Source: Brachionus manjavacas (Eukaryota; Rotifera; Eurotatoria; Ploima; Brachionidae). Taken from it: a DNA stretch of 64,000 bases. Each line of letters starts with the position of its first letter. The first letter of the stretch is position 1. This document shows, piece after piece, positions 16,028 to 58,569 of this stretch. The stretch covers positions 3,641,501 to 3,705,500 of the forward strand of contig JAHQIY010000005.1 of the NCBI GenBank assembly GCA_019054805.1, read 5' to 3'. A program made the position numbers and the translations under genes. Below the pieces are notes generated by a model. The model was not told where the DNA came from. It searched no databases and saw only the letters and a program-made list of their open reading frames with translations.

Positions 16028-16031
16028 AGCA

Positions 16032-22600: not shown

Positions 22601-24860
22601 TTGAAAAAGGCTTTTTCCAACTATGAAATATTAGAATGGGAACACTTTTTCATTAATTTAGGACTTGATCTTCCAGACTTAAATGCATTGGACACAAATG
22701 ACATTTTTCTTAGACCATTAGTAGATTATGATGAAAGAGAATCTGAATTGGCTTTAAAAATTCTTAATTCGAATGTAAATTTGGTCAATTTTATTAAGCT
22801 TCTTCCAATTAAATGCTCAATGGAGTCATGTTCAATAAAGCACCAAACGGTACATCTTAATTCAATACATTTGCCTAATTCTCATTGCATTAAAGTTCCC
22901 TACCATGCCATGAATTTAGCAGAAAAAATGGGAATACACACAAAACTAAATACGAGTTTATGCATAAATTCTTTAGAAGCATTGGTATTAGAAAATAACA
23001 AATTCTCTGATGAGTACTTGAAATGGTTCGCTAGATTACAAGAAATTTCAGGAGACTTTTTTTTTGAGGATGATATCCAGCACAAAAAGTTGATATGTCT
23101 AAAGAATTTATATCAAGAAAAAGAATTTTATTCTCCTAATCAAGTCTATGTGAGCGGTAATAATCAGGTGATAGAAATCCTTGGAAAATACAAAACAGTC
23201 ATAAACGAAAAATTGAATAGAGAATTTTTAGAATTTGAACATTTATTGATAAAATTGGGATTTAAAAATGAACCAAATATACAGGATCTAATTGAATTGA
23301 TTTTTTTGATGGATCAAGATGAAGAAATATTTTTTAACCAAAATTTTTTGGGCAATGTAACTTTTAAAGGACAGAATGCGTTAAAATCAATTTATTTATA
23401 TTTGGAAAATTTACTTCAAAAAAAGCAAACATTTACCAGCCGATCAACTGGGAAACAAGATTGAATTTAAAGGAAATAATTAATAATTCATTGGACAAAT
23501 ATTTAAATGAATTAAAATCACTGCCCGTTTTGACTGTTGATAATAAATTAATTCGAAGTGAAATTTTAAAAGAAAAAATTTTAGTAGCGTCCTTGAATGA
23601 TCAGGTAAGCAAATTGTTTCAAAAGAAAATTCAAGCACTTATTTTGTATGCAATAGTGAAGTTGCTATGAATTGTCCATTTTTAATGTCAATAATAGGAT
23701 GTATTTATTTGGAGCCCAATTCTGTAATAAGATTGTCTCATCAGACTAACAACATGGAGATAATTTATCCATTGATTACTGAAATGGTCAAAATCAATTC
23801 AGATTTAGAAAAAATTGAAATTTTGAATGTTGTTTATATTGGAGCCGATTTGGTTTATGATCCTCTTTTAAATAGAATTCGAAAAAAAGATATTCATTTA
23901 ATTGATTCACTAAAAACTCTTAGTTTACACTCATTTGATTCTTTGCTTTTAGATAACGATACTTTACTTTGCTCAACTAAACTATCAAATAAAAGTGGAT
24001 TTATGTCTGTTTACCAGAGAGGACTGGGAGAATTGTTGAGTCTAAATTTCCCAAATGAGAATATCGAACAAAAACTTAATTGTTGCATCCAAAATTTGGA
24101 TAGAAATTTTGAAAGCCTAAGACAAAGATTCCACAATTGGTCAAAGGGATCAACAGAAGATTCATTTTATGACATGGATCAAATTTCCTTTCTAGAAAAA
24201 AAAAATTTGCCAAATGATCATGTAGCGGCAAATAAAAATAATAGTTTGAGTGAGGAAAAATTATACAAACAAAGAATTTTGCAAATTATTAGTAAACTAC
24301 CTGGTATAAATAGACCTAATGAGTATCATATAAGAAAAAAATATAAAAGTAATATGTCATCTGATAGATTGATCGAGATCGGTAAAAAAGCCGAAACATT
24401 TTTTTATCACTTTCTAAATTTTATCTACCCCGGATCGTTTGAATGGGTTTCATCGTTAAAAAAAGGAATTTTTATCAATAATTTTGGCTTTGATGATAGA
24501 TTAGGCTATGATTTTGTAGTCAACTTTGATAATAAGAAAATATTTTCGCCACAAGGCAAAAAGTGTTTAATTGAAGTAAAAGGATTCGGCGATGAATGGC
24601 AAGGAAATTTTTTCTTTACTAAAAAACAATTAAATGCATTTAAACTTGCTGAAAAAGCTGATGATACAGATTATATAATTGTCGTAATAGATAATTTAAA
24701 CAATTTGTCTAAGGCAAGAATAGCGGAGATTTTTTGCCTAAATGAAAATCCAGATATTTTGCGTCTCGAATCAGAAGTCTTTAAAGCAAGTATTTATCTG
24801 AGAACAAGTGACTTTGGGTCTTCGAGCAATTTTTCGTCATTGTCAGATATTTTAAATTGA
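16631..24860 (+). CDS. NO VEIN/sacsin-like GHKL ATPase with C-terminal DUF3883, copy B
   Basis: The most complete copy, about 2,010 codons. Exon 1 is 16631-19973, the intron 19974-22164 and exon 2 22165-24860. Residues about 130-470 look like armadillo-type helices; 553-600 form a charged coiled coil. The GHKL ATPase domain has an N box (ELIQNVDDA, about 678), a G1 box (NEKGF) and a G2 box (IGNKGLGFKSVF, about 735), as in sacsin and plant NO VEIN. The C-terminal about 170 residues match DUF3883, with GYDFVV (24504) and LIEVKG (24567) giving the D...ExK pattern of the PD-(D/E)xK nuclease fold. Breaks: one T missing at 18864-18868 (six in copy A), one A missing near 23418-23424, and a frame change at 23605-23660 shared with A and F. 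A possible poly(A) signal is at 24976-24981. The cellular role is unknown; family members are linked to chaperone-like or nucleic-acid processing roles, and catalysis here is inference. Confidence 0.75.
19974..22164 (+). other. 2.2-kb intron of NO VEIN-like copy B
   Basis: Same intron as in copy A, with the same splice sites and phase 2, differing by scattered substitutions and short A/T indels. The same GC-richer block (20940-21090) and ACGTATAA palindrome occur. The fusion with Helitron 4 in copy F begins at the equivalent of 21244 in this intron. Confidence 0.7.
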
Positions 24861-25282
24861 ATTTTAGCTTTTCTATGTAGCTTGAAAATAATTCAAAATT
24901 TATCTTCAATTTTTTATTGTTAAAAAGACGGTGCTCTTTCCCATTAAAACTTAATTTTGAAGATAAAGAAAATTAAATAAAAAATTAAAAAATCCATTTT
25001 TTGTAGAATTTTTTATTGACTTTTTGAGAGAAAATTCGTATAAAACATAATTGATTATAAAAGTTACCTTACAACTTTAGTTTTACAATAAGATCGTTCG
25101 TAATAAGAGTAGAGTTTCACTACGGCATGGTGGGGATTATATAAACACTAAAAGGCGTATTGTTTGTTCAAAATGTGAATCTTCAGACCTTTTTTAATAA
25201 AAAAATAAAAAATTTTAAACACATTCTTTATTGAGTTATAACAGAATTCAGAGATCGAATTTATATGATATATATGAGATGA
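24861..25282. other. 3' flank of NO VEIN-like copy B
   Basis: Non-coding, shared with copies A, C, D, E and F. It ends in an AT-rich filler (ATATGATATATATGAGATG, about 25263-25281) that replaces about 730 bp present in copy A, including the 5' part of the LINE. Confidence 0.6.
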
Positions 25283-25370
25283 ATAAAACTCTGAAAAATC
25301 TTCTGGACCGGACACAATGCATCCTTTGATGCTTAAATATAGCAATAAAGCATTCTCTTTTGCGTTTTAA
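25283..25370 (+). mobile_element. 88-bp LINE scrap flanking Helitron 1
   Basis: Nearly identical to 14949-15036 of the LINE beside copy A (encodes the SSGPDTMHPLMLKYSNKA block). It stops exactly at TTTTAA, where Helitron 1 begins. The remainder of the LINE is not found on the far side of any Helitron in the window. Confidence 0.9.
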
Positions 25371-25435
25371 TCCTCTTATATATAATTACGAAAAAAAGTT
25401 GTTTGTTTGATTGTGTAACCAACTTTGCAAATAAG

Positions 25436-25457
25436 CGTCGGAGACCGAAGGTCGACG
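25436..25457. repeat. GC-rich hairpin near the Helitron 5' end
   Basis: CGTCG (25436-25440) pairs with CGACG (25453-25457) and ACC (25444-25446) with GGT (25450-25452), leaving a GAA loop. Present in all five Helitrons about 65 bp from the 5' end, in otherwise AT-rich DNA. A role in 5'-end recognition is possible but unproven. Confidence 0.5.
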
Positions 25458-25504
25458 GCGCGTTTTGCACCTCTTGATGTCCCATTCTGACGAAAATTGC
25501 CAAC

Positions 25505-25735
25505 TCGCCATGTCGTTGCAATGGAAGTCTATGGGCCCTTGGGAAAAAATTGGTCTAATAATGAATTTGCGAATTGAGGGGATATTAAAGTGTTTTTCGG
25601 GTAAATCGAGTGTGTTGATTACGAATATGACCTTTGTTTTTCATTTGGAGTTGAAGGAGGGCCGTGGGGGTTATTTTTAGGCTTTTTGGGCAATTTAAAC
25701 GAATGTGTAGAGGCCGTATTGCAACGACATGGCGA
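25505..25735. repeat. 18-bp perfect inverted repeat in the Helitron 5' region
   Basis: TCGCCATGTCGTTGCAAT at 25505-25522 is the exact reverse complement of 25718-25735. The 195-bp interval is GC-richer than the surroundings. The same arrangement is present in Helitrons 2 to 5. It may be a captured element with its own inverted ends or a structural part of the transposon. Confidence 0.75.
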
Positions 25736-26003
25736 TTTTCTTACGAAATCTGAATTATGGACATAAAATTACTCAGAAATGGTTTTTAAGTTGGTATGCC
25801 TTTGAAAGGCGGGAGCTGTAGACGCTCCTGTTCAATTTTTGCCTTAAATTAAGTCTGAGTGAAAAAAAGTGGGAATAAAGTTTTTTCTGTACAAATCGAT
25901 GCTGCTGATTACGAATATGTGCTTTGTCTTTGCGTAGGTGTTGAAAGCGGGGCGTGGAGGCTGTTTATGAATTTTTTGGGATTTAATCGAGTGTATAGGG
26001 TGC
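25586..26003. repeat. Degenerate direct repeat pair in the Helitron 5' region
   Basis: About 130 bp at 25586-25716 resembles 25876-26003. Shared words include GATTACGAATATG, CTTTGT, GTTGAA and TTTTTTGGG, in the same order. The repeats are about 290 bp apart and clearly diverged, so the duplication is older than the array. Confidence 0.65.
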
Positions 26004-26717
26004 CTAATGCAATGAATCTTTATTTGAAAATTTATAAAAATTTGAATAATCTTCCCAAAAATAAATTGATATTTATTTTAATGGACTTTAAAAATTTTAA
26101 AGAAATTGTTAACTTTATATTATTTTTTTCAATTTTAAAAATTTAAATCTTTAATATATTTTAAAGATTGTAAAATTTCAAAATCACAATATTTATTACA
26201 AATTCGAATTTTTATTAAATTAGTAATTAATAACTTATATTTTTTTGGATAAAAATGTTTAATTTCAAAAATTACGAAATATTAATTTAATTATAATTAA
26301 GTTTATCATTAAATTAAATGATTTATTTAAACCTTATACAGTTTTTAAAATTATTTTATTTTTTTGTATAGTAAAATTTAAATGTTAGAAATTTTTTTAA
26401 TATAAATTGGTTTTTAAAGTTTTGAAAAAAATGTGTTCATTATTTTAAAAAATTTAAATCCATTGAATTATTATTTCGAATTAATTATTTATTATTAAGT
26501 TTTGTTTAAATATTTCCTTCCTCTATTTAAATAAATTTTTATTATTATTTTTAACAAATATTTTAATATTATTTTTTAATTATTAAAAAAAATTTTTTTG
26601 AAGTTTAAATCATTATTAATGATCTTATCAAATTATTAAAATTTTCAATCAAAATATATTAATTTATTTTTTAATATTAGACAATAGAACAATCAAATAT
26701 TTACCAAATAAATTAAA

Positions 26718-29700
26718 ATGCCACCAAGTAATCAAATTATTGTAAATTACTTTTTAATATTTATATCTTAATAGAAACCGTATTTTCAACAAACGATGAT
26801 GAGACAATAAAAGAGTTGTTCAGTCTTTGCACCGTAAATGCTTGGTCTAATTTAGAAATGGAACGTCAGTTCCAGCAACGAACAAGTCGAAGACTAACTT
26901 TTAAGACCTTAAAAGCGAGATTTAATGGTAAAATATTAATTTTGATAGAGTTAAAATTAAACATTTTATTTTAGTAATTATCCAAGCATTGGAACAACCA
27001 CTGGAACAAACCAATAATAATCAGCGTCCAGGAACATCGGCATCATTTGCAACTCAAGTTACAATAAGTGAGGCTGAGCCAATGAGTATTCAACATGAGT
27101 GCCAACTTGATCATCAGATGACTTCTTTGAATCACCAAGAAGCTATTGCTGATATGACCTCAGAGCTTGAACTTAGTTACTTTTTTATATATGTAAAGTA
27201 TAATTATATTAATTGTGTTCTTTAGGTCTTAGTTTTTCTCAACAAGACGAAACATCAGATTTTAATTTAAATGAGACTGTAAATACCCCTGAAACATCAA
27301 ATTTGAGACGACCTGGCAAACCAACAAGTTCGAGGCAAAGGAGAAGATCGCCATTAACTATTGAATCGGTGAACAGACTAAACGAGATTCCGCTGATTAA
27401 TAATAGACTATCAGCTACAACTCCGATTCGTACAAGAAGAAATTTAACCATTCAACTTGAACGGATGGGCACAGCTTCATTTGGGGAAGCACAAAGAGTG
27501 ATTATCACGAGAGCGATGCGCGAAAGAATTAGACGCGCAAATAAGAGTGATGACCAAACTCAAGAACGTTTATTATCTCATTTAAATCGTCAACCTGTCT
27601 TAAGGGCTAATGAAACACCTAATACAGATAATCGTCTTTCTCTTCAGGTTGAGAGACAGAGAAATCGATTAGCAAACGAGACTCCTGAAGTAGCAAATAA
27701 TCGTGTATCTATTGAGGCTGAGAGGCAAAGAAATCGTCGAGCAAATGAGACTGCTGAGCAGCGCGAGAAACGGTTAATGTATCAAAGAGACTACCGAGCT
27801 CGCATCAGAGAGAACGAAACGCCCGAAGAACGTTTACATAGACTCGGTTTAGTTAATGAAAGAAGGCGTGAAAACCGAATTAATCGTCCTTTTTATATGG
27901 AATGGAATATAGATAGGGAAAATGCGATTGAAATTGACAATCAAGGCCAGTTGGAACATGCCTGCCAATATTGCAATGCCTTATACTGGCCAAAGGAAGT
28001 CAATCGAAGCGGCAATTACATTCTTTGTTGTGAAAGGAACAAGATTGTAGTGCCAATTATTGATCAATTTCATCCGACATTAATTCAGTTAGTAAATCCA
28101 GTTAACGATGCACAATGGCAATTAAGCGCAGAGTTTATGATGAATATACGCCAATACAACTCACTTTTTGCAATGGCAGCGGTAAAGTCAAATTTTGATC
28201 CCGAAGACTTGGATAATGTTCTAAATGATATGACACGTTTCAATGAAAGGCGTAATAATCGATTGCCTTATCTTTATAAAGTACATGGTTCTGTTTACTA
28301 CCGCATCCCTCCAATGTTTAATGGACCTAATGGTAATTTGAATCTAAGAGCTGCACAGTATCTTATGTTAGATTCAGATCGAGCTATTGTTGAAAGTATG
28401 CTTGTGAATGGGACTAAAAGCGGTCTAAATATTAATGAAGATATTGTTCAACTTTTAAATCAGATGATGACTAACTCAAATCCACTCAAGCAGTTATTTT
28501 TGACTAATCGCGAAGTTCTTCATCAGCAAAATCAACAAGATCCTTTTACTGTTCAAATGTGGATTACCCGATTTGTTCCGCATAATGTCAATGTACCGGT
28601 TAATGCAAGCGGAAGAAGACAAATTGCTGATTTTGCAGTGAACGGTGAAATTGCAGCCGTTTTTAACGATCAAGACGGTTTGCCTGACGATGGAGTGATT
28701 GTTTATGCCCAAGCAAGACAACTAAATTTGCCTCTAATAAATATTGTACCACAACGTCCAAATAACCATATGCAAAGCATTGACTTGAGGAACCCAAATT
28801 GTGATCCTATGTGTTTTCCATTGCTTTTTCCATATGGTGAATCTGGCTATGATGAACGTTATCAACATAATCAAGTTCATTTGACTACAAATTCAAGAGT
28901 TACTTTGAAAGAATTTTACAAGCATCGTTTACACTTTCGATTGAATTGTCACAATTCTATTTTTAAAATGAGCAAATTATTTCAAGAATATGTGGTTTGT
29001 TCATGGATTAAAATAGAAAAGAACAATTTAAAATTTCTTCGTATGAATCAAGCACGTTTAAGAATAATGGACTATCGGGGCATAATGGATCGTGTTAATG
29101 GTAATTATAATCTTGAAGAAAGAATTGGAAGGGCTTATATTCTACCATCGACGTTTGATGGCAGTGATAGAGCCATGAAACAACATTATTTCGATGCATT
29201 GGAATTAGTTGGAAGATTTGGTAAAGCCGATTACTTTATAACATTTACGTCAAATCCCAGCTGGCCTGAACTTCAACAAACTCTGGCTGCAGGTCAGCCA
29301 TATTTATCTCGGCCTGACATGTGTTCCAGAATGTACAATTTGAAGTTCCGTGAGTTCTGGAACGATCTGAACACCGAACACAAGATAGGAGTGGTAGAGG
29401 CTTATGTTCGAGTGAAGGAATATCAAAAGAGAGGACTTCCACATGATCATATGCTGTTGTGGATGCGAGAAAACGATAAACCATCCACTCCGGAACTAAT
29501 CGATCAGGTTATATGCGCCGAAATTCCAGATCCCGTTACTGACAGAGAGTTATACGAGCTTGTAAAATCAAAAATGATCCATGGACCGTGCTTGCCAAAT
29601 AGCTCATGTATGAAGCAATTTGGTAACCGTTGCTCAAAAGGATTTCCAAAGCATTACAGTGAAACAACGGTCATGAGATTAAATAACTATCCACTGTATC

Positions 29701-32700
29701 GGAGACGGAATAATGATAGAATGGTAACGGTGAGAGGCCATGTACTTGATAACAGATATGTGATTCCATATAATCCTGCGATGCTCAAAAAGTTTCAATG
29801 CCATATTAATTTGGAATATTGTGGCAATTTGAGTTCGATGAAATATATCTTCAATTATGTGTGCAAAGGAAATGATCGTGTCAATGTTCAAGCTCATGGT
29901 ATGAATAACAATATGCCTTTTGCAAATCGAGGACTTACACGAGACGAGTTTGTACAGATGAATCAACGTCAAACTGTTGACAATAGGCAAATCGATTTTA
30001 TTGAGAATGATGATTATGATGTTCAAATTAATCATGATGTTGACAATAATTTAGCTATGGAAGATGATGAGAATGATAATCAAGTTGCAAATCATGATGA
30101 AGGTGAAAATGGTCGTGATCAAGAAAATGATAACATAACTGATAATGGTGACAATGTTCAAGCCGCTAACAATGGTCAAAATAATGATGAAATCTATGAT
30201 GAGATCAGGACATATGAGCGGAAGAGATATGTCAGTTCAATTGAAGCTTTCGATAAGATTATTGGCTTCAAACGTCATGAGATATCTCATACTGTTATTC
30301 ATTTGTTAATTCATCTTGAGAACCGGCAAAATGTTGTTTTTGTTCAAAACAATATTCAACAAGTGGCTAACAATGTACCAAGAACAATGTTGACCGAATT
30401 TTTTGAATTGAACACACGTAGCCAGCGTGCAAACCAATATCTTTACAAAGAAATAGTCATCCATTATCGATTTGATGCGATTAACAAACAATGGATTGAA
30501 CGTGTTCAAGTGAACAGGGCTGAAAGAATAATTGGCCGTATACCTTTTATTCATCCAAATAATCGAGAGCTCTTTCATTTGAAGCTATTGTTGTTACACG
30601 TTCGAGGACCTAATTCTTATTTGTACTTAAAAACTGTTGATGGACAAGTGTATGCTACATTTGAAGAGGCTGCCCGTGCGCGTAATCTTGTTGAAAACAA
30701 TCAACAATGGTACACAATTTTGGAAGAGATTTGTCGAGCTGAACTACCATATAGGATAAGGTAAATATATTTATTAAGGAATTTTAATTCTACTTTATTT
30801 ATTGTCTTTTAATTAGATTTTTGTATGTATCAATTTTATATCACAATAATCCTGCCAACCCGAATGCATTCGAACTGTGGGAAGCATTTAAAGATCCAAT
30901 GTCTGAGGACTACAGACATGAAATTGGTGATGCCAAATATCATAAGGCACTTGGTGTAAGAAATCAAACAAATTTTGGAAATAAATAAATAATTAAATTT
31001 GCTTTTTTTTAGCACATTAGATTTATATTGGAGTCTTTTGGCAAGGTGTTAGAGGACTTCGATTTGCCAATTCCAGATGATCGTGGTTTGCAGTGGCGCA
31101 CCAGAGATATGCCACCAAATATGGGAGAATTAACTCCTGAACAACATACAGAAAGGGCACATCATCTGAATTTGACACTCAACATTCAACAAAGGGTAAA
31201 TTTTTGACATTATTTTTTACTTTTTTCATTTAATTCATTTAGAATGCGATCGATGTTGTTTTAGAAGCTGTTAATAGCAATGACCCAGGATTAAATAAAA
31301 GTTTTTCTTGGACGGTCCAGGAGGCACTGGAAAAACATATGTTATTAATGTAATTTTCAAAAATTTTTTATTTAAACAAATATATATTTAATTCTTTGAT
31401 TTTGAAGCTATTGTTTCATCGATTGAAACAACATAATATGAAAATGATTGCTACAGCTTTTACCGGAATCGCTTCTTCGCTGTTGATTGGTGGTGGCCGT
31501 ACAATGCACTCCAGATTTAAAATACCCATTCCTACTCATATGGGTGTTACAAGTAACATCATGGTGCATTCTGAACAAGCCCAAGAACTTCGAGAATGCC
31601 GATTATTTGTTATTGACGAGGCTTCAATGGTCTCCAGAGCAATGTTGGAGTGCGTTGATCGTTTGTTACGCGACATTATGCAGCAACCCAATATTCCTTT
31701 TGGCGGCAAACCAATACTGTTAACTGGCGACTTTAGACAATGTTGTCCAGTGTCGGACAATGAAAATATTGAAGCTGGCATACTAATGTGTCTAAAAAAT
31801 TCTCCATTATGGCCGTTGTTTACCCAACTCGTATTGACCGAAAACGTGAGGGCTGATCCCAATGAACATGAGTTTAAGAACTGGCTTATGGATATTGGAA
31901 ACGGCCGAAGTCGTATTTACGATGGTCAATATATGGTAAAGCTTCCCGATAGAGTTGTATGCAGAAACAATATTGTAAATCAAGTGTTTGGCGATGTTCC
32001 TTTAAACTTGGATCAACAAAATCGTTTGAATAATGCAATTTTGTGTCCAACTAACAGAGACTCACTTGAAATCAATGAAGTTATTTTGGAAAGATTGGTT
32101 GGTGATAATCATGAATATTTGTCAGCAACAAGCATAGTAAATCGTCAGACTGGAATTGTTGATGATGTTGACGATAATCCAATCGAGGAAGCATTAAGAG
32201 CAACACCAAACGGATTCCCACCACACAAATTGAACATCAAAGTGGGAGCTATTGTTATGCTCATAAAAAATTGGTCTGTTGCATTTGGATTGTGCAATGG
32301 TACTCGATTACGTGTAACTCAATGCAATCAGTTCAGTATCAGATGTTCTGTGTTGACTGGACCTCAACAAGGTCATGAATTCGTTTTGCCACGAACTGAA
32401 TTCAGATCAAATCAAACTGATGCTGGTGTTTGGCTCCGTCGGATTCAATTTCCGTTCCGACTGTCATTTGCTATGACTATAAATAAATCTCAGGGCCAAA
32501 CATTCAATAATGTTGGTTTGCTACTTCGCCAACCAGTGTTTTCACATGGTCAACTGTATGTAGCTGCTTCGAGAGTCCGTAACTTTGATTCGCTATGTAT
32601 TTTGGTAGACACACATTTATATGGTTCAAATCGACAAGGTGAACTGAAACTTACTCGAAATGACAATGGTGTTTATACAAGAAATGTGGTTTTCAGAGAA

Positions 32701-32712
32701 ATTTTGAATTAA
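26718..32712 (+). pseudogene. Helitron 1 Rep/PIF1-like helicase (one frameshift)
   Basis: Eight exons with short GT-AG introns: 26718-26727, 26775-26927, 26975-27175, 27226-30760, 30817-30955, 31013-31195, 31243-31349, 31408-32712. The phases agree. All domains described for element 2 are present. Element 1 has T5 instead of T6 in AAAAGTTTTTCTTGG (about 31311), which shifts the frame immediately before the Walker A motif and would remove the helicase. A poly(A) signal AATAAA is at 32742-32747, 30 bp after the stop. Either inactive or an assembly miscall of a homopolymer. Confidence 0.88.
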
Positions 32713-32907
32713 ACTCTAAATTTAATATTTATATATTTTTCAATAAATATATTAAAAATAAAATTTATTAAATCAACTTCAAATTTTAAATAATTATTTT
32801 TTAGTCAACAAAATTTTAATTTCATTCTAATACAGTACCGATTTGACAAGTGGATTTTTAACGTAAATTTACGTAAATTTACGTAAAATTACTTTGTAAC
32901 AAATTGG

Positions 32908-33273
32908 AAATTTACGTATATTTACGTAAATTAACGTAAAAATTGGTAAAAATGAAAATGCCAAAAAAAGCCCGATTTTTTGAATTTTTTATTATTTTCT
33001 AATAAATTTTGAAAAAATTAGTTTCTATTTATTATCAAATTTTACCAAAAGTTATTTTTTTTACTAATTTTGCGTAAATTTATGTAAATAATGGTAAAAT
33101 ATGGTAAAATATGGTAAAAAATACTTTTTGATAAAATTTGATTTAATAAATAGAAACTAATTTTTTAAAAAATTATTAGAAAATAATAAAAAATTCAAAA
33201 AATCTGGCTTTTTTTTGGCATTTTCATTTTTACCAATTTTTACGTAAATTTACGTAAATATACGTAAAATTAC
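32908..33273. repeat. Long inverted repeat (foldback) in Helitron 3' region
   Basis: Left arm 32908-33062 and right arm 33115-33273 are reverse complements with few mismatches. Both contain the blocks ACGTATATTTACGTAAAT, GGTAAAAATGAAAATGCC and TTAGTTTCTATTTATTA. The loop of about 50 bp carries repeated ATGGTAAAAT. It is either a nested foldback MITE or a hairpin belonging to the Helitron. Counterparts: 42948-43314 in element 2 and 52992-53357 in element 3. Confidence 0.85.
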
Positions 33274-33824
33274 TTTTTATATTCACATGTGTCTAAATCT
33301 CAAAAAATCTGGACTAAAAATTAAAAACAGATATGAATTAATTTTTAACCTTTCCCTTTATTCAATTTACATTAGAAGACCATTTTTATTTTATAAACAT
33401 TTAACAAATTAAAAAAAAAACAACATAAATTTACCTAAAAAACTAATTCAGATAAAAGAAATATAATCATAATTTCAAATATTGGTAATTTTTTTGTTGT
33501 GGAAAAAAATGGAAAAATGCAAATAAATCGCAGAGCTTAAAAAGTTGTTGTTTCGCTCTATAATTGCCCGAAAAGTACAATTTTTACATTCAAAAACTCA
33601 TGAAGAATTAATTTAAAATAATTTATTAAAATTTTATCAAGTAAAATAATCAATGTCTTTGGCAAAACTTACTTGAACATCAGAATTAAAATTTCTTAGT
33701 ATTGTAATCTCTTTATCACTTAATAGAGACCTTGATCAGTGATTAAAATCGCAAATAAAATAGTCCAATTAGCGAAGCAGCTAGGACCTGTATAAAATCT
33801 GCAAGATTTTAGTTCTATCTCGGA

Positions 33825-33849
33825 GGAATAGAAAGGCAGATAGAGCTAG
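33825..33849 (+). other. Helitron 3' terminal motif and CTAG end
   Basis: The stem arm AGATAGA and the CTAG terminus, preceded by arm TCTATCT about 25 bp upstream. Helitron 3' ends are typically a hairpin followed by CTRR; this fits, though the 17-nt loop is long and the stem AT-rich. Confidence 0.6.
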
Positions 33850-33855
33850 TAGATA

Positions 33856-42752: not shown

Positions 42753-42947
42753 ACTCTAAATTTAATATTTATATATTTTTCAATAAATATATTAAAAATA
42801 AAATTTATTAAATCAACTTCAAATTTTAAATAATTATTTTTTAGTCAACAAAATTTTAATTTCATTCTAATACAGTACCGATTTGACAAGTGGATTTTTA
42901 ACGTAAATTTACGTAAATTTACGTAAAATTACTTTGTAACAAATTGG

Positions 42948-45448: not shown

Positions 45449-48400
45449 TCCTCTTATATATAATTACGAAAAAAGTTGTTTGTTTGATTGTGTAACCAAC
45501 TTTGCAAATAAGCGTCGGAGACCGAAGGTCGACGGCGCGTTTTGCACCTCTTGATGTCCCATTCTGACGAAAATTGCCAACTCGCCATGTCGTTGCAATG
45601 GAAGTCTATGGGCCCTTGGGAAAAAATTGGTCTAATAATGAATTTGCGAATTGAGGGGATATTAAAGTGTTTTTCGGGTAAATCGAGTGTGTTGATTACG
45701 AATATGACCTTTGTTTTTCATTTGGAGTTGAAGGAGGGCCGTGGGGGTTATTTTTAGGCTTTTTGGGCAATTTAAACGAATGTGTAGAGGCCGTATTGCA
45801 ACGACATGGCGATTTTCTTACGAAATCTGAATTATGGACATAAAATTACTCAGAAATGGTTTTTAAGTTGGTATGCCTTTGAAAGGCGGGAGCTGTAGAC
45901 GCTCCTGTTCAATTTTTGCCTTAAATTAAGTCTGAGTGAAAAAAAAGTGGGAATAAAGTTTTTTCTGTACAAATCGATGCTGCTGATTACGAATATGTGC
46001 TTTGTCTTTGCGTAGGTGTTGAAAGCGGGGCGTGGAGGCTGTTTATGAATTTTTTTGGGATTTAATCGAGTGTATAGGGTGCGTAATGCAATGAATCTTT
46101 ATTTGAAAATTTATAAAAATTTGAATAATCTTCCCAAAAATAAATTGATATTTATTTTAATGGACTTTAAAAATTTTAAAGAAATTGTTAACTTTATATT
46201 ATTTTTTTTCAATTTTAAAAATTTAAATCTTTAATATATTTTAAAGATTGTAAAATTTCAAAATCACAATATTTATTACAAATTCGAATTTTTATTAAAT
46301 TAGTAATTAATAACTTATATTTTTTTTTGGATAAAAATGTTTAATTTCAAAAATTACGAAATATTAATTTAATTATAATTAAGTTTATCATTAAATTAAA
46401 TGATTTATTTAAACCTTATACAGTTTTTAAAATTATTTTATTTTTTTGTATAGTAAAATTTAAATGTTAGAAATTTTTTTTTTAATATAAATTGGTTTTT
46501 AAAGTTTTGAAAAAAATGTGTTCATTATTTTAAAAAATTTAAATCCATTGAATTATTATTTCGAATTAATTATTTATTATTAAGTTTTGTTTAAATATTT
46601 CCTTCCTCTATTTAAATAAATTTTTATTATTATTTTTAACAAATATTTTAATATTATTTTTTAATTATTAAAAAAAATTTTTTTGAAGTTTAAATCATTA
46701 TTAATGATCTTATCAAATTATTAAAATTTTCAATCAAAATATATTAATTTATTTTTTAATATTAGACAATAGAACAATCAAATATTTACCAAATAAATTA
46801 AAATGCCACCAAGTAATCAAATTATTGTAAATTACTTTTTAATATTTATATCTTAATAGAAACCGTATTTTCAACAAACGATGATGAGACAATAAAAGAG
46901 TTGTTCAGTCTTTGCACCGTAAATGCTTGGTCTAATTTAGAAATGGAACGTCAGTTCCAGCAACGAACAAGTCGAAGACTAACTTTTAAGACCTTAAAAG
47001 CGAGATTTAATGGTAAAATATTAATTTTGATAGAGTTAAAATTAAACATTTTATTTTAGTAATTATCCAAGCATTGGAACAACCACTGGAACAAACCAAT
47101 AATAATCAGCGTCCAGGAACATCGGCATCATTTGCAACTCAAGTTACAATAAGTGAGGCTGAGCCAATGAGTATTCAACATGAGTGCCAACTTGATCATC
47201 AGATGACTTCTTTGAATCACCAAGAAGCTATTGCTGATATGACCTCAGAGCTTGAACTTAGTTACTTTTTTATATATGTAAAGTATAATTATATTAATTG
47301 TGTTCTTTAGGTCTTAGTTTTTCTCAACAAGACGAAACATCAGATTTTAATTTAAATGAGACTGTAAATACCCCTGAAACATCAAATTTGAGACGACCTG
47401 GCAAACCAACAAGTTCGAGGCAAAGGAGAAGATCGCCATTAACTATTGAATCGGTGAACAGACTAAACGAGATTCCGCTGATTAATAATAGACTATCAGC
47501 TACAACTCCGATTCGTACAAGAAGAAATTTAACCATTCAACTTGAACGGATGGGCACAGCTTCATTTGGGGAAGCACAAAGAGTGATTATCACGAGAGCG
47601 ATGCGCGAAAGAATTAGACGCGCAAATAAGAGTGATGACCAAACTCAAGAACGTTTATTATCTCATTTAAATCGTCAACCTGTCTTAAGGGCTAATGAAA
47701 CACCTAATACAGATAATCGTCTTTCTCTTCAGGTTGAGAGACAGAGAAATCGATTAGCAAACGAGACTCCTGAAGTAGCAAATAATCGTGTATCTATTGA
47801 GGCTGAGAGGCAAAGAAATCGTCGAGCAAATGAGACTGCTGAGCAGCGCGAGAAACGGTTAATGTATCAAAGAGACTACCGAGCTCGCATCAGAGAGAAC
47901 GAAACGCCCGAAGAACGTTTACATAGACTCGGTTTAGTTAATGAAAGAAGGCGTGAAAACCGAATTAATCGTCCTTTTTATATGGAATGGAATATAGATA
48001 GGGAAAATGCGATTGAAATTGACAATCAAGGCCAGTTGGAACATGCCTGCCAATATTGCAATGCCTTATACTGGCCAAAGGAAGTCAATCGAAGCGGCAA
48101 TTACATTCTTTGTTGTGAAAGGAACAAGATTGTAGTGCCAATTATTGATCAATTTCATCCGACATTAATTCAGTTAGTAAATCCAGTTAACGATGCACAA
48201 TGGCAATTAAGCGCAGAGTTTATGATGAATATACGCCAATACAACTCACTTTTTGCAATGGCAGCGGTAAAGTCAAATTTTGATCCCGAAGACTTGGATA
48301 ATGTTCTAAATGATATGACACGTTTCAATGAAAGGCGTAATAATCGATTGCCTTATCTTTATAAAGTACATGGTTCTGTTTACTACCACGTCCCTCCAAT

Positions 48401-51400
48401 GTTTAATGGACCTAATGGTAATTTGAATCTAAGAGCTGCACAGTATCTTATGTTAGATTCAGATCGAGCTATTGTTGAAAGTATGCTTGTGAATGGGACT
48501 AAAAGCGGTCTAAATATTAATGAAGATATTGTTCAACTTTTAAATCAGATGATGACTAACTCAAATCCACTCAAGCAGTTATTTTTGACTAATCGCGAAG
48601 TTCTTCATCAGCAAAATCAACAAGATCCTTTTACTGTTCAAATGTGGATTACCCGATTTGTTCCGCATAATGTCAATGTACCGGTTAATGCAAGCGGAAG
48701 AAGACAAATTGCTGATTTTGCAGTGAACGGTGAAATTGCAGCCGTTTTTAACGATCAAGACGGTTTGCCTGACGATGGAGTGATTGTTTATGCCCAAGCA
48801 AGACAACTAAATTTGCCTCTAATAAATATTGTACCACAACGTCCAAATAACCATATGCAAAGCATTGACTTGAGGAACCCAAATTGTGATCCTATGTGTT
48901 TTCCATTGCTTTTTCCATATGGTGAATCTGGCTATGATGAACGTTATCAACATAATCAAGTTCATTTGACTACAAATTCAAGAGTTACTTTGAAAGAATT
49001 TTACAAGCATCGTTTACACTTTCGATTGAATTGTCACAATTCTATTTTTAAAATGAGCAAATTATTTCAAGAATATGTGGTTTGTTCATGGATTAAAATA
49101 GAAAAGAACAATTTAAAATTTCTTCGTATGAATCAAGCACGTTTAAGAATAATGGACTATCGGGGCATAATGGATCGTGTTAATGGTAATTATAATCTTG
49201 AAGAAAGAATTGGAAGGGCTTATATTCTACCATCGACGTTTGATGGCAGTGATAGAGCCATGAAACAACATTATTTCGATGCATTGGAATTAGTTGGAAG
49301 ATTTGGTAAAGCCGATTACTTTATAACATTTACGTCAAATCCCAGCTGGCCTGAACTTCAACAAACTCTGGCTGCAGGTCAGCCATATTTATCTCGGCCT
49401 GACATGTGTTCCAGAATGTACAATTTGAAGTTCCGTGAGTTCTGGAACGATCTGAACACCGAACACAAGATAGGAGTGGTAGAGGCTTATGTTCGAGTGA
49501 AGGAATATCAAAAGAGAGGACTTCCACATGATCATATGCTGTTGTGGATGCGAGAAAACGATAAACCATCCACTCCGGAACTAATCGATCAGGTTATATG
49601 CGCCGAAATTCCAGATCCCGTTACTGACAGAGAGTTATACGAGCTTGTAAAATCAAAAATGATCCATGGACCGTGCTTGCCAAATAGCTCATGTATGAAG
49701 CAATTTGGTAACCGTTGCTCAAAAGGATTTCCAAAGCATTACAGTGAAACAACGGTCATGAGATTAAATAACTATCCACTGTATCGGAGACGGAATAATG
49801 ATAGAATGGTAACGGTGAGAGGCCATGTACTTGATAACAGATATGTGATTCCATATAATCCTGCGATGCTCAAAAAGTTTCAATGCCATATTAATTTGGA
49901 ATATTGTGGCAATTTGAGTTCGATGAAATATATCTTCAATTATGTGTGCAAAGGAAATGATCGTGTCAATGTTCAAGCTCATGGTATGAATAACAATATG
50001 CCTTTTGCAAATCGAGGACTTACACGAGACGAGTTTGTACAGATGAATCAACGTCAAACTGTTGACAATAGGCAAATCGATTTTATTGAGAATGATGATT
50101 ATGATGTTCAAATTAATCATGATGTTGACAATAATTTAGCTATGGAAGATGATGAGAATGATAATCAAGTTGCAAATCATGATGAAGGTGAAAATGGTCG
50201 TGATCAAGAAAATGATAACATAACTGATAATGGTGACAATGTTCAAGCCGCTAACAATGGTCAAAATAATGATGAAATCTATGATGAGATCAGGACATAT
50301 GAGCGGAAGAGATATGTCAGTTCAATTGAAGCTTTCGATAAGATTATTGGCTTCAAACGTCATGAGATATCTCATACTGTTATTCATTTGTTAATTCATC
50401 TTGAGAACCGGCAAAATGTTGTTTTTGTTCAAAACAATATTCAACAAGTGGCTAACAATGTACCAAGAACAATGTTGACCGAATTTTTGAATTGAACACA
50501 CGTAGCCAGCGTGCAAACCAATATCTTTACAAAGAAATAGTCATCCATTATCGATTTGATGCGATTAACAAACAATGGATTGAACGTGTTCAAGTGAACA
50601 GGGCTGAAAGAATAATTGGCCGTATACCTTTTATTCATCCAAATAATCGAGAGCTCTTTCATTTGAAGCTATTGTTGTTACACGTTCGAGGACCTAATTC
50701 TTATTTGTACTTAAAAACTGTTGATGGACAAGTGTATGCTACATTTGAAGAGGCTGCCCGTGCGCGTAATCTTGTTGAAAACAATCAACAATGGTACACA
50801 ATTTTGGAAGAGATTTGTCGAGCTGAACTACCATATAGGATAAGGTAAATATATTTATTAAGGAATTTTAATTCTACTTTATTTATTGTCTTTTAATTAG
50901 ATTTTTGTATGTATCAATTTTATATCACAATAATCCTGCCAACCCGAATGCATTCGAACTGTGGGAAGCATTTAAAGATCCAATGTCTGAGGACTACAGA
51001 CATGAAATTGGTGATGCCAAATATCATAAGGCACTTGGTGTAAGAAATCAAACAAATTTTGGAAATAAATAAATAATTAAATTTGCTTTTTTTTAGCACA
51101 TTAGATTTATATTGGAGTCTTTTGGCAAGGTGTTAGAGGACTTCGATTTGCCAATTCCAGATGATCGTGGTTTGCAGTGGCGCACCAGAGATATGCCACC
51201 AAATATGGGAGAATTAACTCCTGAACAACATACAGAAAGGGCACATCATCTGAATTTGACACTCAACATTCAACAAAGGGTAAATTTTTGACATTATTTT
51301 TTACTTTTTTCATTTAATTCATTTAGAATGCGATCGATGTTGTTTTAGAAGCTGTTAATAGCAATGACCCAGGATTAAATAAAAGTTTTTCTTGGACGGT

Positions 51401-53933
51401 CCAGGAGGCACTGGAAAAACATATGTTATTAATGTAATTTTCAAAAATTTTTTATTTAAACAAATATATATTTAATTCTTTGATTTTGAAGCTATTGTTT
51501 CATCGATTGAAACAACATAATATGAAAATGATTGCTACAGCTTTTACCGGAATCGCTTCTTCGCTGTTGATTGGTGGTGGCCGTACAATGCACTCCAGAT
51601 TTAAAATACCCATTCCTACTCATATGGGTGTTACAAGTAACATCATGGTGCATTCTGAACAAGCCCAAGAACTTCGAGAATGCCGATTATTTGTTATTGA
51701 CGAGGCTTCAATGGTCTCCAGAGCAATGTTGGAGTGCGTTGATCGTTTGTTACGCGACATTATGCAGCAACCCAATATTCCTTTTGGCGGCAAACCAATA
51801 CTGTTAACTGGCGACTTTAGACAATGTTGTCCAGTGTCGGACAATGAAAATATTGAAGCTGGCATACTAATGTGTCTAAAAAATTCTCCATTATGGCCGT
51901 TGTTTACCCAACTCGTATTGACCGAAAACGTGAGGGCTGATCCCAATGAACATGAGTTTAAGAACTGGCTTATGGATATTGGAAACGGCCGAAGTCGTAT
52001 TTACGATGGTCAATATATGGTAAAGCTTCCCGATAGAGTTGTATGCAGAAACAATATTGTAAATCAAGTGTTTGGCGATGTTCCTTTAAACTTGGATCAA
52101 CAAAATCGTTTGAATAATGCAATTTTGTGTCCAACTAACAGAGACTCACTTGAAATCAATGAAGTTATTTTGGAAAGATTGGTTGGTGATAATCATGAAT
52201 ATTTGTCAGCAACAAGCATAGTAAATCGTCAGACTGGAATTGTTGATGATGTTGACGATAATCCAATCGAGGAAGCATTAAGAGCAACACCAAACGGATT
52301 CCCACCACACAAATTGAACATCAAAGTGGGAGCTATTGTTATGCTCATAAAAAATTGGTCTGTTGCATTTGGATTGTGCAATGGTACTCGATTACGTGTA
52401 ACTCAATGCAATCAGTTCAGTATCAGATGTTCTGTGTTGACTGGACCTCAACAAGGTCATGAATTCGTTTTGCCACGAACTGAATTCAGATCAAATCAAA
52501 CTGATGCTGGTGTTTGGCTCCGTCGGATTCAATTTCCGTTCCGACTGTCATTTGCTATGACTATAAATAAATCTCAGGGCCAAACATTCAATAATGTTGG
52601 TTTGCTACTTCGCCAACCAGTGTTTTCACATGGTCAACTGTATGTAGCTGCTTCGAGAGTCCGTAACTTTGATTCGCTATGTATTTTGGTAGACACACAT
52701 TTATATGGTTCAAATCGACAAGGTGAACTGAAACTTACTCGAAATGACAATGGTGTTTATACAAGAAATGTGGTTTTCAGAGAAATTTTGAATTAAACTC
52801 TAAATTTAATATTTATATATTTTTCAATAAATATATTAAAAATAAAATTTATTCAATCAACTTCAAATTTTAAATAATTATTTTTTAGTCAACAAAATTT
52901 TAATTTCATTCTAATACAGTACCGATTTGACAAGTGGATTTTTAACGTAAATTTACGTAAATTTACGTAAAATTACTTTGTAACAAATTGGAAATTTACG
53001 TATATTTACGTAAATTAACGTAAAAATTGGTAAAAATGAAAATGCCAAAAAAAAGCCCGATTTTTTGAATTTTTTATTATTTTCTAATAAATTTTGAAAA
53101 AATTAGTTTCTATTTATTATCAAATTTTACCAAAAGTTATTTTTTTTACTAATTTTGCGTAAATTTATGTAAATAATGGTAAAATATGGTAAAATATGGT
53201 AAAAAAAATACTTTTTGATAAAATTTGATTTAATAAATAGAAACTAATTTTTTAAAAAATTATTAGAAAATAATAAAAAATTCAAAAAATCTGGCTTTTT
53301 GGCATTTTCATTTTTACCAATTTTTACGTAAATTTACGTAAATATACGTAAAATTACTTTTTATATTCACATGTGTCTAAATCTCAAAAAATCTGGACTA
53401 AAAATTAAAAACAGATATGAATTAATTTTTAACCTTTCCCTTTATTCAATTTACATTAGAAGACCATTTTTATTTTATAAACATTTAACAAATTAAAAAA
53501 AAAACAACATAAATTTACCTAAAAAACTAATTCAGATAAAAGAAATATAATCATAATTTCAAATATTGGTAATTTTTTTGTTGTGGAAAAAAATGGAAAA
53601 ATGCAAATAAATCGCAGAGCTTAAAAAGTTGTTGTTTCGCTCTATAATTGCCCGAAAAGTACAATTTTTACATTCAAAAACTCATGAAGAATTAATTTAA
53701 AATAATTTATTAAAATTTTATCAAGTAAAATAATCAATGTCTTTGGCAAAACTTACTTGAACATCAGAATTAAAATTTCTTAGTATTGTAATCTCTTTAT
53801 CACTTAATAGAGACCTTGATCAGTGATTAAAATCGCAAATAAAATAGTCCAATTAGCGAAGCAGCTAGGACCTGTATAAAATCTGCAAGATTTTAGTTCT
53901 ATCTCGGAGGAATAGAAAGGCAGATAGAGCTAG
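45449..53933 (+). mobile_element. Helitron 3 (8,485 bp)
   Basis: Ends TC (45449) and CTAG (53930-53933). Same organisation as elements 1 and 2; the 3' foldback is at 52992-53357. Confidence 0.92.
46803..52796 (+). pseudogene. Helitron 3 Rep/helicase (two frameshifts)
   Basis: Exons 46803-46812, 46860-47012, 47060-47260, 47311-50844, 50901-51039, 51097-51279, 51327-51433 and 51492-52796. One T is missing at 50484-50488, which ends the Rep part early. The same T5-for-T6 loss as in element 1 occurs before Walker A (about 51386). It reads YHVPPM where the others read YRIPPM (about 48386). All Rep motifs are upstream of the first break. Confidence 0.88.
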
Positions 53934-53939
53934 TAGATA

Positions 53940-54982
53940 TGAAATTTTGAATGTTGTTTATATTGGAGCCGATTTGGTTTATGATCCTCTTTTAAATAGA
54001 ATTCGAAAAAAAGATATTCATTTAATTGATTCACTAAAAACTCTTAGTTTACACTCATTTGATTCTTTGCTTTTAGATAACGATACTTTACTTTGCTCAA
54101 CTAAACTATCAAATAAAAGTGGATTTATGTCTGTTTACCAGAGAGGACTGGGAGAATTGTTGAGTCTAAATTTCCCAAATGAGAATATCGAACAAAAACT
54201 TAATTGTTGCATGCAAAATTTGGATAGAAATTTTGAAAGCCTAAGACAAAGATTCCACAATTGGTCAAAGGGATCAACAGAAGATTCATTTTATGACATG
54301 GATCAAATTTCCTTTCTAGAAAAAAAATTTGCCAAATGATCATGTAGCGGCAAATAAAAATAATAGTTTGAGTGAGGAAAAATTATACAAACAAAGAATT
54401 TTGCAAATTATTAGTAAACTACCTGGTATAAATAGACCTAATGAGTATCATATAAGAAAAAAATATAAAAGTAATATGTCATCTGATAGATTGATCGAGA
54501 TCGGTAAAAAAGCCGAAACATTTTTTTATCACTTTCTAAATTTTATCTACCCCGGATCGTTTGAATGGGTTTCATCGTTAAAAAAAGGAATTTTTATCAA
54601 TAATTTTGGCTTTGATGATAGATTAGGCTATGATTTTGTAGTCAACTTTGATAATAAGAAAATATTTTCGCCACATGGCAAAAAGTGTTTAATTGAAGTA
54701 AAAGGATTCGGCGATGAATGGCAAGGAAATTTTTTCTTTACTAAAAAACAATTAAATGCATTTAAACTTGCTGAAAAAGCTGATGATACAGATTATATAA
54801 TTGTCGTAATAGATAATTTAAACAATTTGTCTAAGGCAAGAATAGCGGAGATTTTTTGCCTAAATGAAAATCCAGATATTTTGCGTCTCGAATCAGAAGT
54901 CTTTAAAGCAAGTATTTATCTGAGAACAAGTGACTTTGGGTCTTCGAGCAATTTTTCGTCATTGTCAGATATTTTAAATTGA
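53940..54982 (+). pseudogene. 3' fragment of NO VEIN-like gene, copy E
   Basis: As copy C, but the A run at 54320-54327 has 8 A instead of 10, stopping the first frame at 54339. The DUF3883 domain itself remains open from 54329 to 54982. Confidence 0.85.
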
Positions 54983-55491
54983 ATTTTAGCTTTTCTATGT
55001 AGCTTGAAAATAATTCAAAATTTATCTTCAATTTTTTATTGTTAAAAAGACGGTGCTCTTTCCCATTAAAACTTAATTTTGAAGATAAAGAAAATTAAAT
55101 AAAAAATTAAAAAATCCATTTTTTGTAGAATTTTTATTGACTTTTTGAGAGAAAATTCGTATAAAACATAATTGATTATAAAAGTTACCTTACAACTTTA
55201 GTTTTACAATAAGATCGTTCGTAATAAGAGTAGAGTTTCACTACGGCATGGTGGGGATTATATAAACACTAAAAGGCGTATTGTTTGTTCAAAATGTGAA
55301 TCTTCAGACCTTTTTTAATAAAAAAATAAAAAATTTTAAACACATTCTTTATTGAGTTATAACAGAATTCAGAGATCGAATTTATATGATATATATGAGA
55401 TGAATAAAACTCTGAAAAATCTTCTGGACCGGACACAATGCATCCTTTGATGCTTAAATATAGCAATAAAGCATTCTCTTTTGCGTTTTAA
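54983..55491 (+). other. Flank plus LINE scrap before Helitron 4
   Basis: Gene flank, then the LINE scrap at 55404-55491. No gene. Confidence 0.85.
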
Positions 55492-58400
55492 TCCTCTTAT
55501 ATATAATTACGAAAAAAAGTTGTTTGTTTGATTGTGTAACCATCTTTGCAAATAAGCGTCGGAGACCGAAGGTCGACGGCGCGTTTTGCACCTCTTGATG
55601 TCCCATTCTGACGAAAATTGCCAACTCGCCATGTCGTTGCAATGGAAGTCTATGGGCCCTTGGGAAAAAATTGGTCTAATAATGAATTTGCGAATTGAGG
55701 GGATATTAAAGTGTTTTTCGGGTAAATCGAGTGTGTTGATTACGAATATGACCTTTGTTTTTCATTTGGAGTTGAAGGAGGGCCGTGGGGGTTATTTTTA
55801 GGCTTTTTGGGCAATTTAAACGAATGTGTAGAGGCCGTATTGCAACGACATGGCGATTTTCTTACGTAATCTGAATTATGGACATAAAATTACTCAGAAA
55901 TGGTTTTTAAGTTGGTATGCCTTTGAAAGGCGGGAGCTGTAGACGCTCCTGTTCAATTTTTGCCTTAAATTAAGTCTGAGTGAAAAAAAAGTGGGAATAA
56001 AGTTTTTTCTGTACAAATCGATGCTGCTGATTACGAATATGTGCTTTGCGTAGGTGTTGAAAGCGGGGCGTGGAGGCTGTTTATGAATTTTTTTGGGATT
56101 TAATCGAGTGTATAGGGTGCGTAATGCAATGAATTTTTATTTGAAAATTTATAAAAATTTGAATAATCTTCCCAAAAATAAATTGATATTTATTTTAATG
56201 GACTTTAAAAATTTTAAAGAAATTGTTAACTTTATATTATTTTTTCAATTTTAAAAATTTAAATCTTTAATATATTTTAAAGATTGTAAAATTTCAAAAT
56301 CACAATATTTATTACAAATTCGAATTTTTATTAAATTAGTAATTAATAACTTATATTTTTTTTGGATAAAAATGTTTTATTTCAAAAATTACGAAATATT
56401 AATTTAATTATAATTAAGTTTATCATTAAATTAAATGATTTATTTAAACCTTATACTGTTTTTAAAATTATTTTATTTTTTTGTATAGTAAAATTTAAAT
56501 GTTAGAAATTTTTTTTTTTAATATAAATTGGTTTTTAAAGTTTTGAAAAAAATGTGTTCATTATTTTAAAAAATTTAAATCCATTGAATTATTATTTCGA
56601 ATTAATTATTTATTATTAAATTTTGTTTAAATATTTCCTTCCTCTATTTAAATAAATTTTTATTTTAAAATATTAACAAATATTTTAAAATAATTATATC
56701 TTAATAGAAACCGTATTTTCAACAAACGATGATGAGACAATAAAAGAGTTGTTCAGTCTTGCACCGTAAATGCTTGGTCTAATTTAGAAATGGAACGTCA
56801 GTTCCAGCAACGAACAAGTCGAAGACTAACTTTTAAGACCTTAAAAGCGAGATTTAATGGTAAAATATTAATTTTGATAGAGTTTAAAATTAAACATTTT
56901 ATTTTAGTAATTATCCAAGCATCGGAACAACCACTGGAACAAACCAATAATAATCAGCGTCCAGGAACATCGGCATCATTTGCAACTCAAGTTACAATAA
57001 GTGAGGCTGAGCCAATGAGTATTCAACATGAGTGCCAACTTGATCATCAGATGACTTCTTTGAATCACCAAGAAGCTATTGCTGATATGACCTCAGAGCT
57101 TGAACTTAGTTACTTTTTTATATATGTAAAGTATAATTATATTAATTGTGTTCTTTAGGTCTTAGTTTTTCTCAAAAAGACGAAACATCAGATTTTAATT
57201 TAAATGAGACTGTAAATACCCCTGAAACATCAAATTTGAGACGACCTGGCAAACCAACAAGTTCGAGGCAAAGGAGAAGATCGCCATTAACTATTGAATC
57301 GGTGAACAGACTAAACGAGATTCAGCTGATTAATAATAGACTATCAGCTACAACTCCGATTCGTACAAGAAGAAATTTAACCATTCAACTTGAACGGATG
57401 GGCACAGCTTCATTTGGAGAAGCACAAAGAGTGATTATCACGAGAGCGATGCGCGAAAGAATTAGACGCGCAAATGAGAGTGATGACCAAACTCAAGAAC
57501 GTTTATTATCTCATTTAAATCGTCAACCTGTCTTAAGGGCTAATGAAACGCCTAATACAGATAATCGTCTTTCTCTTCAGGTTGAGAGACAGAGAAATCG
57601 ATTAGCAAACGAGACTCCTGAAGTAGCAAATAATCGTGTATCTATTGAGGCTGAGAGGCAAAGAAATCGTCGAGCAAATGAGACTGCTGAGCAGCGCGAG
57701 AAACGGTTAATGTATCAAAGAGACTACCGAGCTCGCATCAGAGAGAACGAAACGCCCGAGGAACGTTTACATAGACTCGGTTTAGTTAATGAAAGAAGGC
57801 GTGAAAACCGAATTAATCGTCCTTTTTATATAGAATGAAATATAGATAGGGAAAATGCGATTGAAATTGACAATCAAGGCCAGTTGGAACATGCCTGCCA
57901 ATATTGCAATGCCTTATACTGGCCAAAGGAAGTCAATCGAAGCGGCAATTACATTCTTTGTTGTGAAAGGAACAAGATTGTAGTGCCAATTATTGATCAA
58001 TTTCATCCGACATTAATTCAGTTAGTAAATCCAGTTAACGATGCACAATGGCAATTAAGCGCAGAGTTTATGATGAATATACGCCAATACAACTCACTTT
58101 TTGCAATGGCAGCGGTAAAGTCAAATTTTGATCCCGAAGACTTGGATAATGTTCTAAATGATATGACACGTTTCAATGAAAGGCGTAATAATCGATTGCC
58201 TTATCTTTATAAAGTACATGGTTCTGTTTACTACCGCATCCCTCCAATGTTTAATGGACCTAATGGTAATTTGAATCTAAGAGCTGCACAGTATCTTATG
58301 TTAGATTCAGATCGAGCTATTGTTGAGAGTATGCTTGTGAATGGGACTAAAAGCGGTCTAAATATCAATGAAGATATTGTTCAACTTTTAAATCAGATGA

Positions 58401-58569
58401 TGACTAACTCAAATCCACTCAAGCAGTTATTTTTGACTAATCGCGAAGTTCTTCATCAGCAAAATCAACAAGATCCTTTTACTGTTCAAATGTGGACTAC
58501 CCGATTTGTTCCGCATAATGTCAATGTACCGGTTAATGCAAGCGGAAGAAGACAAATTGCTGATTTTGC
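55492..58569 (+). mobile_element. Helitron 4, 3'-truncated (3,078 bp)
   Basis: Starts with the normal TC end at 55492 and stops inside the Rep exon at 58569 (after GCTGATTTTGC), where NO VEIN-like intron sequence follows. It differs from elements 1-3 by an about 190-bp deletion that removes the start exon (junction near 56660-56697) and several substitutions, all but the downstream ones shared with element 5. No helicase and no 3' end are present. Confidence 0.9.
56708..58569 (+). pseudogene. Helitron 4 Rep N-terminal remnant
   Basis: Remnant exons are 56708-56859, 56908-57108 and 57159-58569. The ATG exon is deleted, one T is missing at about 56760, and TGG has become TGA at 57836-57838 (ending ...FYIE) where intact copies read FYMEW; two G-to-A changes lie within seven bases. 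The zinc-binding region and the N-terminal Helitron domain remain readable after the stop, up to the fusion point. Not functional. Confidence 0.88.

Follow-up and report, generated by a model that had tools for sequence, protein, structure and literature searches.

The window analysed here, 64,000 nt on contig C5 of a 114-Mb assembly in 61 contigs, has a G+C content of 29% and contains an array of Helitrons. Self-comparison and the adjoining sequence indicate that the host gene unit at this locus is ~11 kb long and tandemly repeated, and that the Helitron array sits within this gene cluster (Table 1). Two positions in the gene recur throughout: p, where the Helitron is inserted, and q, where the amplified host piece begins.

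Table 1. Gene copies, Helitrons and host pieces of the array (G3 and G4 in window coordinates)
Feature	Position	Strand	Remarks
Gene copy G1	5184..16226	+	Marginal Sacsin and NO VEIN C-terminal matches; p empty
Gene copy G2, up to site p	16227..25370	+	q uninterrupted; left edge of the array
Original copy of the amplified host piece (q to p)	23816..25370	+	3' end of the gene, NO VEIN C-terminal match, downstream flank
Helitron H1, full	25371..33849	+	5' TCCTCTTATATA, 3' GATAGAGCTAG; open frames for Rep (HUH) and a PIF1 helicase
Helitron 3' terminus	33800..33849	+	11-bp stem preceding CTAG
Unit 2 host piece	33850..35410	+	Opens with TAGATA, then host q sequence
Helitron H2, full	35411..43889	+
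Unit 3 host piece	43890..45448	+
Helitron H3, full length	45449..53933	+	Rep frame broken close to its end
Unit 4 host piece	53934..55491	+
Helitron H4	55492..58569	+	Lineage B, reduced to the 5' 3.08 kb; followed by the host equivalent of 21244
Unit 5 host piece, mosaic	58570..62707	+	Left part G3-type, right part G2-type
Helitron H5, 5' part	62708..64000	+	Lineage B; extends to 65781 past the window, then G3
Gene copy G3	~65782-71839		Beyond the window's right end
Gene copy G4	~71840-82264		Beyond the window's right end

The initial annotation assigned the host gene an ATPase/nuclease fold, a description for which the Pfam matches are marginal. A Sacsin match (33.4 bits, cut-off 32.8) was found in one frame of G1 but not in the corresponding frames of G2, and a NO VEIN C-terminal domain match (24.5-26.4 bits, cut-off 22.1) is present in G1, G2 and unit 2. 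The frame at 18859-19974 had no match by sequence search against solved structures, and within the window there was no tRNA and no RNA family above threshold. A genome search with the q region returned 12 matches, of which eight strong and three short ones fall in the cluster and the last, a weak one, is on C3; by its own statement, the search tool's repeat counts are lower bounds. A stretch of ~0.7 kb directly before p is present in G1 and missing from all five Helitron-bearing flanks (25262-25283 compared with 14223-14949). G3 past 69809 resembles G1 in the region of this gap, and the alignments of G3 and G4 to G1 continue through p.

The Helitron itself has the features expected of a canonical autonomous element. 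H1 is 8,479 bp long, and its ends, TCCTCTTATATA and GATAGAGCTAG, are found in the three full copies of the array and in a copy on contig C13, giving the canonical 5' TC and 3' CTRR termini. Rep is represented by a stop-to-stop frame of 1183 codons (PF14214, E 1.7e-46) with an N-terminal STPR match, and a frame of 452 codons matches the PIF1 helicase (PF05970, E 2e-41). An H-x-H motif lies within the Rep frame, which we take to be the HUH motif of Rep. The layout of the frames suggests that Rep and helicase, which are separate here, are probably joined by introns. The 11-bp stem at the 3' terminus is of ordinary stability, as 33 of 200 shuffled sequences fold at least as well in energy. More distant relatives exist, the best reaching 70% in protein comparison across most of the helicase; a search of viral contigs for the helicase gave no relative. 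Close to the 3' end of every full Helitron (H1, H2, H3 and the C13 copy) there is a palindromic repeat of ~440 bp, at 32831-33273 in H1, which is rich in TTTACGTAAA and has CAGTACCGATTTGAC following TA at one end. Similar copies, mostly ~74-90% identical, are scattered at many places in the genome, and the repeat therefore has the appearance of a small inverted-repeat transposon that entered the Helitron.

In G2, the Helitron sits ~0.5 kb past the point where the NO VEIN-bearing frame ends. Site p is empty in G1 (at 15036/15037), G3 and G4, where it reads AA/TTAATATT, and the occupied site reads AA/TC... Because these three gene copies are uninterrupted at p, the insertion can be recognized as the canonical A^T type, with no duplication of the target.

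Close relatives of the element are rare. A genome search with the Helitron 5' end gave at least 12 matches. Six are full-length (five in the array and one on C13), and the other six are partial, 70-74% identical, and overlap or adjoin those same copies. At least four matches were obtained with the 3' end, three in the array and one on C13. The C13 copy is thus the only other near-identical Helitron found in the genome, with these counts being lower bounds. It is flanked as A/TC...CTAG/T and lacks the host flank of the C5 gene. Its substitutions relative to H1, H2 and H3 number 11, 13 and 11 in ~8,475 bases. This near-identity, together with the clean ends, indicates recent movement of the family with its termini correctly used. 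At 760 bp more than the length of H1, the C13 Helitron also has an internal duplication (2013-2698 of the extracted piece) that is missing from the array copies. A region of ~220 kb on the same contig (C13:1531200-1753962) holds ten Rep matches, mostly decayed.

Many matches to a second, different Helitron family lie near contig ends, including those of C19, C52, C4, C14 and C17, and several of these matches have long open frames. Two copies within C19:1-20000, at 6223-11741 and 13587-19088, are 99.5% alike; each starts in TTAGGG-type telomere repeats, and one of the two runs straight into CCCTAA repeats at its end. The start of the copy in C52:27001-37000 is not in telomere repeats. Telomere-associated Helitrons have been reported in the nematode Oscheius tipulae (PMC8022731).

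Read from left to right, the array consists of G2..p-H1, q..p-H2, q..p-H3, q..p-H4 (truncated) and 21244-equivalent..p-H5 (truncated), followed by G3. Successive Helitron starts are spaced 10,040, 10,038, 10,043 and 7,216 bp apart, and in self-comparison 23816-46658 and 33856-56695 are 99.7% identical over 22.9 kb, with 24 mismatches and 30 gap openings. The exact ends and this self-comparison bear out the initial annotation, which described three full Helitrons with TC...CTAG ends alternating with a 1.56-kb host piece at a period of ~10.04 kb; all three carry Rep/helicase genes. Its count of a single truncated Helitron needs correction, as there are two, H4 and H5, the latter (62708-65781) crossing the end of the window. 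Alignment shows both to be cut off at the identical internal point and to continue at the identical host position. The truncation joint, at 58569/58570 and by alignment also at 65781/65782, is a plain non-homologous joint within the Helitron; its sequence is consistent with a deletion reaching into the next gene copy. In unit 2, a predicted stop-to-stop frame of 371 codons (33785-34900) runs from the 3' end of the Helitron across CTAG into the tail of the NO VEIN-like gene.

The repeated structure is not a matter of chance similarity, since the units are 10 kb long and near-identical and carry unit-specific substitutions and indels. The number of units, three full and two truncated, is given as assembled. 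Near-identical 10-kb repeats are hard to assemble and many of the differences are indels, but an assembly artefact is the least credible of the explanations weighed here given the private substitutions of the units, the two Helitron lineages, the truncation in just two units and the mosaic unit.

The joint that founds the array connects the exact 3' end of the Helitron (CTAG/T) to q, 1.55 kb upstream of the Helitron 5' end in the same gene. It is non-homologous, carries ~5 extra bases and lies exactly at CTAG/T in all three full units. The initial annotation had pointed to the Helitron's own 3' end, and this link is real. A circle of the unit would carry the junction CTAG/TAGATATGAAA, compared with CTAG/TC in a normal Helitron circle. 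The joint reads CTAG TAGATA TGAAATTTTG, and the intact q in five uninterrupted copies reads AAAAAAT TGAAATTTTG; the TAGATA of unit 2 is not found at q in the intact gene copies, and its position between CTAG and host q contrasts with the canonical flanks at p and on C13. The extra bases are therefore six (TAGATA), or five (AGATA) if the target is taken as AAAAAA^TTGAAA. The filler may have been copied from AGATA near the Helitron end, because this motif recurs 12 bases before that end; the recurrence suggests this only weakly, with a shuffle chance of 0.085 (last 30 bases, either strand). A genome-wide search allowing up to two mismatches found no further joint between the Helitron and q.

The precision of this joint bears on how the array could have begun. 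One explanation leaves the transposase uninvolved: an illegitimate tandem duplication whose breakpoint coincided with the Helitron end, followed by unequal crossing over. The truncation joint of H4 (58569/58570) is a comparable non-homologous joint in the same array, and yet the founding breakpoint would have to fall at one exact base among the thousands in the Helitron and its flanks. We consider such a coincidence very improbable. With a random break at this point unlikely, the Helitron 3' end was presumably made by the element's own cutting or by insertion. That the unit ends exactly on the 3' cleavage site implicates the element, whether a join went wrong at the donor site or a Helitron inserted a second time and the two elements then recombined.

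The initial annotation had proposed rolling-circle replication that either began outside the element or read through its end. Read-through was rejected because the joint sits exactly at CTAG; the flank is also upstream sequence, and there is accordingly no 3' transduction by bypass of the end. Initiation outside the element would require an alternative 5' end at q, with Rep starting at q and stopping at CTAG and the resulting 10-kb circle or concatemer re-entering by homologous recombination. This would account for the 3' boundary exactly at CTAG and predicts the seamless left edge that is seen, and a similar idea of an alternative left terminal sequence (LTS) was put forward for the Populus KCS arrays (PMC13253262). 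However, the unit start, TAGATATGAAAT, opens without a TC and is dissimilar to the Helitron's 5' end: it shares 8/30 positions with the left end (9/30 if the count begins at 33856), a score of at least 8 being reached at 80% of all positions along the gene. The search for solo flank-plus-Helitron units elsewhere in the genome, suggested by the same annotation, found none (counts being lower bounds), and the only dispersed copy found, on C13, is a Helitron alone with normal ends. An alternative 5' end is therefore improbable, somewhat less so than simple coincidence.

Unequal recombination, the other origin raised by the initial annotation, is supported by unit 5. At sites that distinguish G2 from G3/G4, the left part of this unit is G3-type at 10/10 sites from 21360 to 22875 and the right part G2-type at 6/6 sites from 24935 to 25234, with one switch point, which falls within sequence shared by the two gene copies. 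This comparison excluded gapped columns and any site at which G3 and G4 disagree, and site 24089, private to G2, was set aside. If G3 had exchanged unequally with a [..p-Helitron] unit, this is the sequence pattern expected. As a mosaic of two gene copies, unit 5 indicates that at least this part of the array was multiplied by unequal homologous recombination within the host flank. Over 23816-25262, the Helitron-side flanks differ by 0-2 substitutions from one another, by 3-5 from G1 and by 6-7 from G3/G4. A higher figure for G1, 18-20 substitutions from the Helitron-bearing flanks, was set aside; most of these adjoin the 0.7-kb gap, and 3-5 lie away from it.

The Helitrons of the array fall into two lineages, A (H1-H3) and B (H4 and H5), separated by 27 fixed substitutions in ~3.07 kb, 17 of which lie outside an indel-rich stretch. 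The host flanks from q to p of the five units show 0-2 differences among themselves in ~1.55 kb. Judged from the sequences, this split beside near-identical flanks counts against a donor-site join following a single insertion; a single insertion would fit only if exchange near p replaced the flank of lineage B. The lineages can also be explained by two ordinary insertions in the same orientation, lineage B at p and lineage A (that of C13) at q, 1.55 kb upstream. Recombination between these Helitrons would give Helitron-[q..p]-Helitron arrays, with the left-hand Helitron at q lost by exchange with an intact gene copy. Two insertions account for the exact CTAG/T end and for the presence of lineage A in all three q-joint Helitrons and lineage B in the rightmost two. 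An A^T dinucleotide is available at q, and the context AAAAAA^TTGAAATTTTG could be read as a canonical insertion site with five extra bases, a possible second insertion that also counts against a donor-site join.

Several observations fit two insertions poorly. The five extra bases at q are unexpected for an ordinary insertion. H1-H3 are already of lineage A at 51 bp from the 5' end, so the exchange between A and B would have to lie in this 51-bp stretch, unless conversion came afterwards. The genome yielded a single other near-identical copy, and with the family this rare, two insertions 1.5 kb apart require a local preference. The joint of q-left to a Helitron 5' end was not found among the copies detected, the six full-length 5'-end matches being five at p and one on C13. 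We regard two insertions as an unlikely origin, though the strongest of the alternatives.

The explanation ranked first, ahead of two insertions, is a donor-site join at the Helitron 3' end followed by homologous amplification, which we hold with about even confidence. The exact CTAG end, the filler bases and a parallel with Helraiser (below) suggest it. How the founding joint was made and in what order the events followed is what we infer here. A canonical Helitron would have inserted once at the A^T site p of G2, downstream of the NO VEIN-bearing frame. Its 3' terminus, the expected cut site of the Rep nuclease, would then have been joined at the donor locus to q with ~5 filler bases, giving a single tandem duplication of [q...p-Helitron]. 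There are two likely routes to such a joint. A nick at CTAG/T may have turned into a break, or Rep may have aberrantly joined upstream DNA to the right terminus, with resealing on a sister copy. Once two units were present, unequal homologous exchange in the gene flank and the Helitrons could raise the copy number. A deletion extending into the following gene copy would have removed the 3' part of the last element, and the truncated-Helitron unit would then have been duplicated by one more unequal exchange. More tentatively, and with somewhat less than even confidence, we propose that the Helitron 3' cut site started the tandem duplication of the element and its upstream neighbour at the donor locus, with Rep-made nicks becoming ends that were joined on the sister copy to DNA upstream of the left end.

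The element resembles canonical autonomous Helitrons of the RepHel type, such as Helraiser (PMC4778049, PMC5876387), in its TC/CTAG ends, A^T insertion, Rep HUH nuclease and PIF1-type helicase. The canonical element also has a stem before CTAG, whose putative counterpart here is the 11-bp stem. The C5 element differs from the RepHel elements described there in its local amplification together with an upstream flank, its separate Rep and helicase frames and its N-terminal STPR match. With single-stranded minus-strand donors, Helraiser gave mostly aberrant joints, which connected DNA upstream of the left end to positions within the right end (PMC5876387). Those joints came from artificial single-stranded donors and lay inside the right end, whereas the joint here is at the end exactly.

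Plants, bats and fungi are known to carry tandem Helitrons (PMC5876387, PMC5148889), and the array shares with these several Helitrons in the same orientation at a single locus. The tandem arrays described in these sources consist of head-to-tail joins or adjacent insertions. In the array on C5, by contrast, CTAG is never joined directly to TC after a full Helitron, as 1.56 kb of host gene separates the elements in all three of these intervals. Repeated host sequence with Helitron-like signals also occurs in Arabidopsis, where tRNA-Cys clusters overlap annotated Helitrons and local duplication via failed termination was proposed (2023, PMC10701932). In that case, Helitron-finding programs yielded no reliable prediction for the tRNA genes; here, a canonical Helitron with an exact 3' end is present.

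Helitrons have already been proposed as a source of tandem gene copies. In Populus, tandem KCS genes were suggested to result from Helitrons using an alternative left end beyond the element itself (2026, PMC13253262), and gene copies alternate with Helitrons there as they do here. Compared with the Populus arrays as described, the joint on C5 can be read base by base, has no TC start upstream and contains filler; homologous exchange is demonstrated by the mosaic unit, and the gene tail alone is amplified. The Helitron literature consulted described no case of an exact CTAG joined to upstream host DNA. The array is young enough for its steps to be read as canonical insertion, a non-homologous joint at the 3' end and homologous amplification, parts that are each of a known kind and whose combination is unusual. 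The locus makes Helitron nicking as the seed of a donor-site tandem duplication directly testable. If true, such nicking would open a route at the donor site by which Helitron activity leads to tandem gene arrays, distinct from both gene capture and head-to-tail concatemers.
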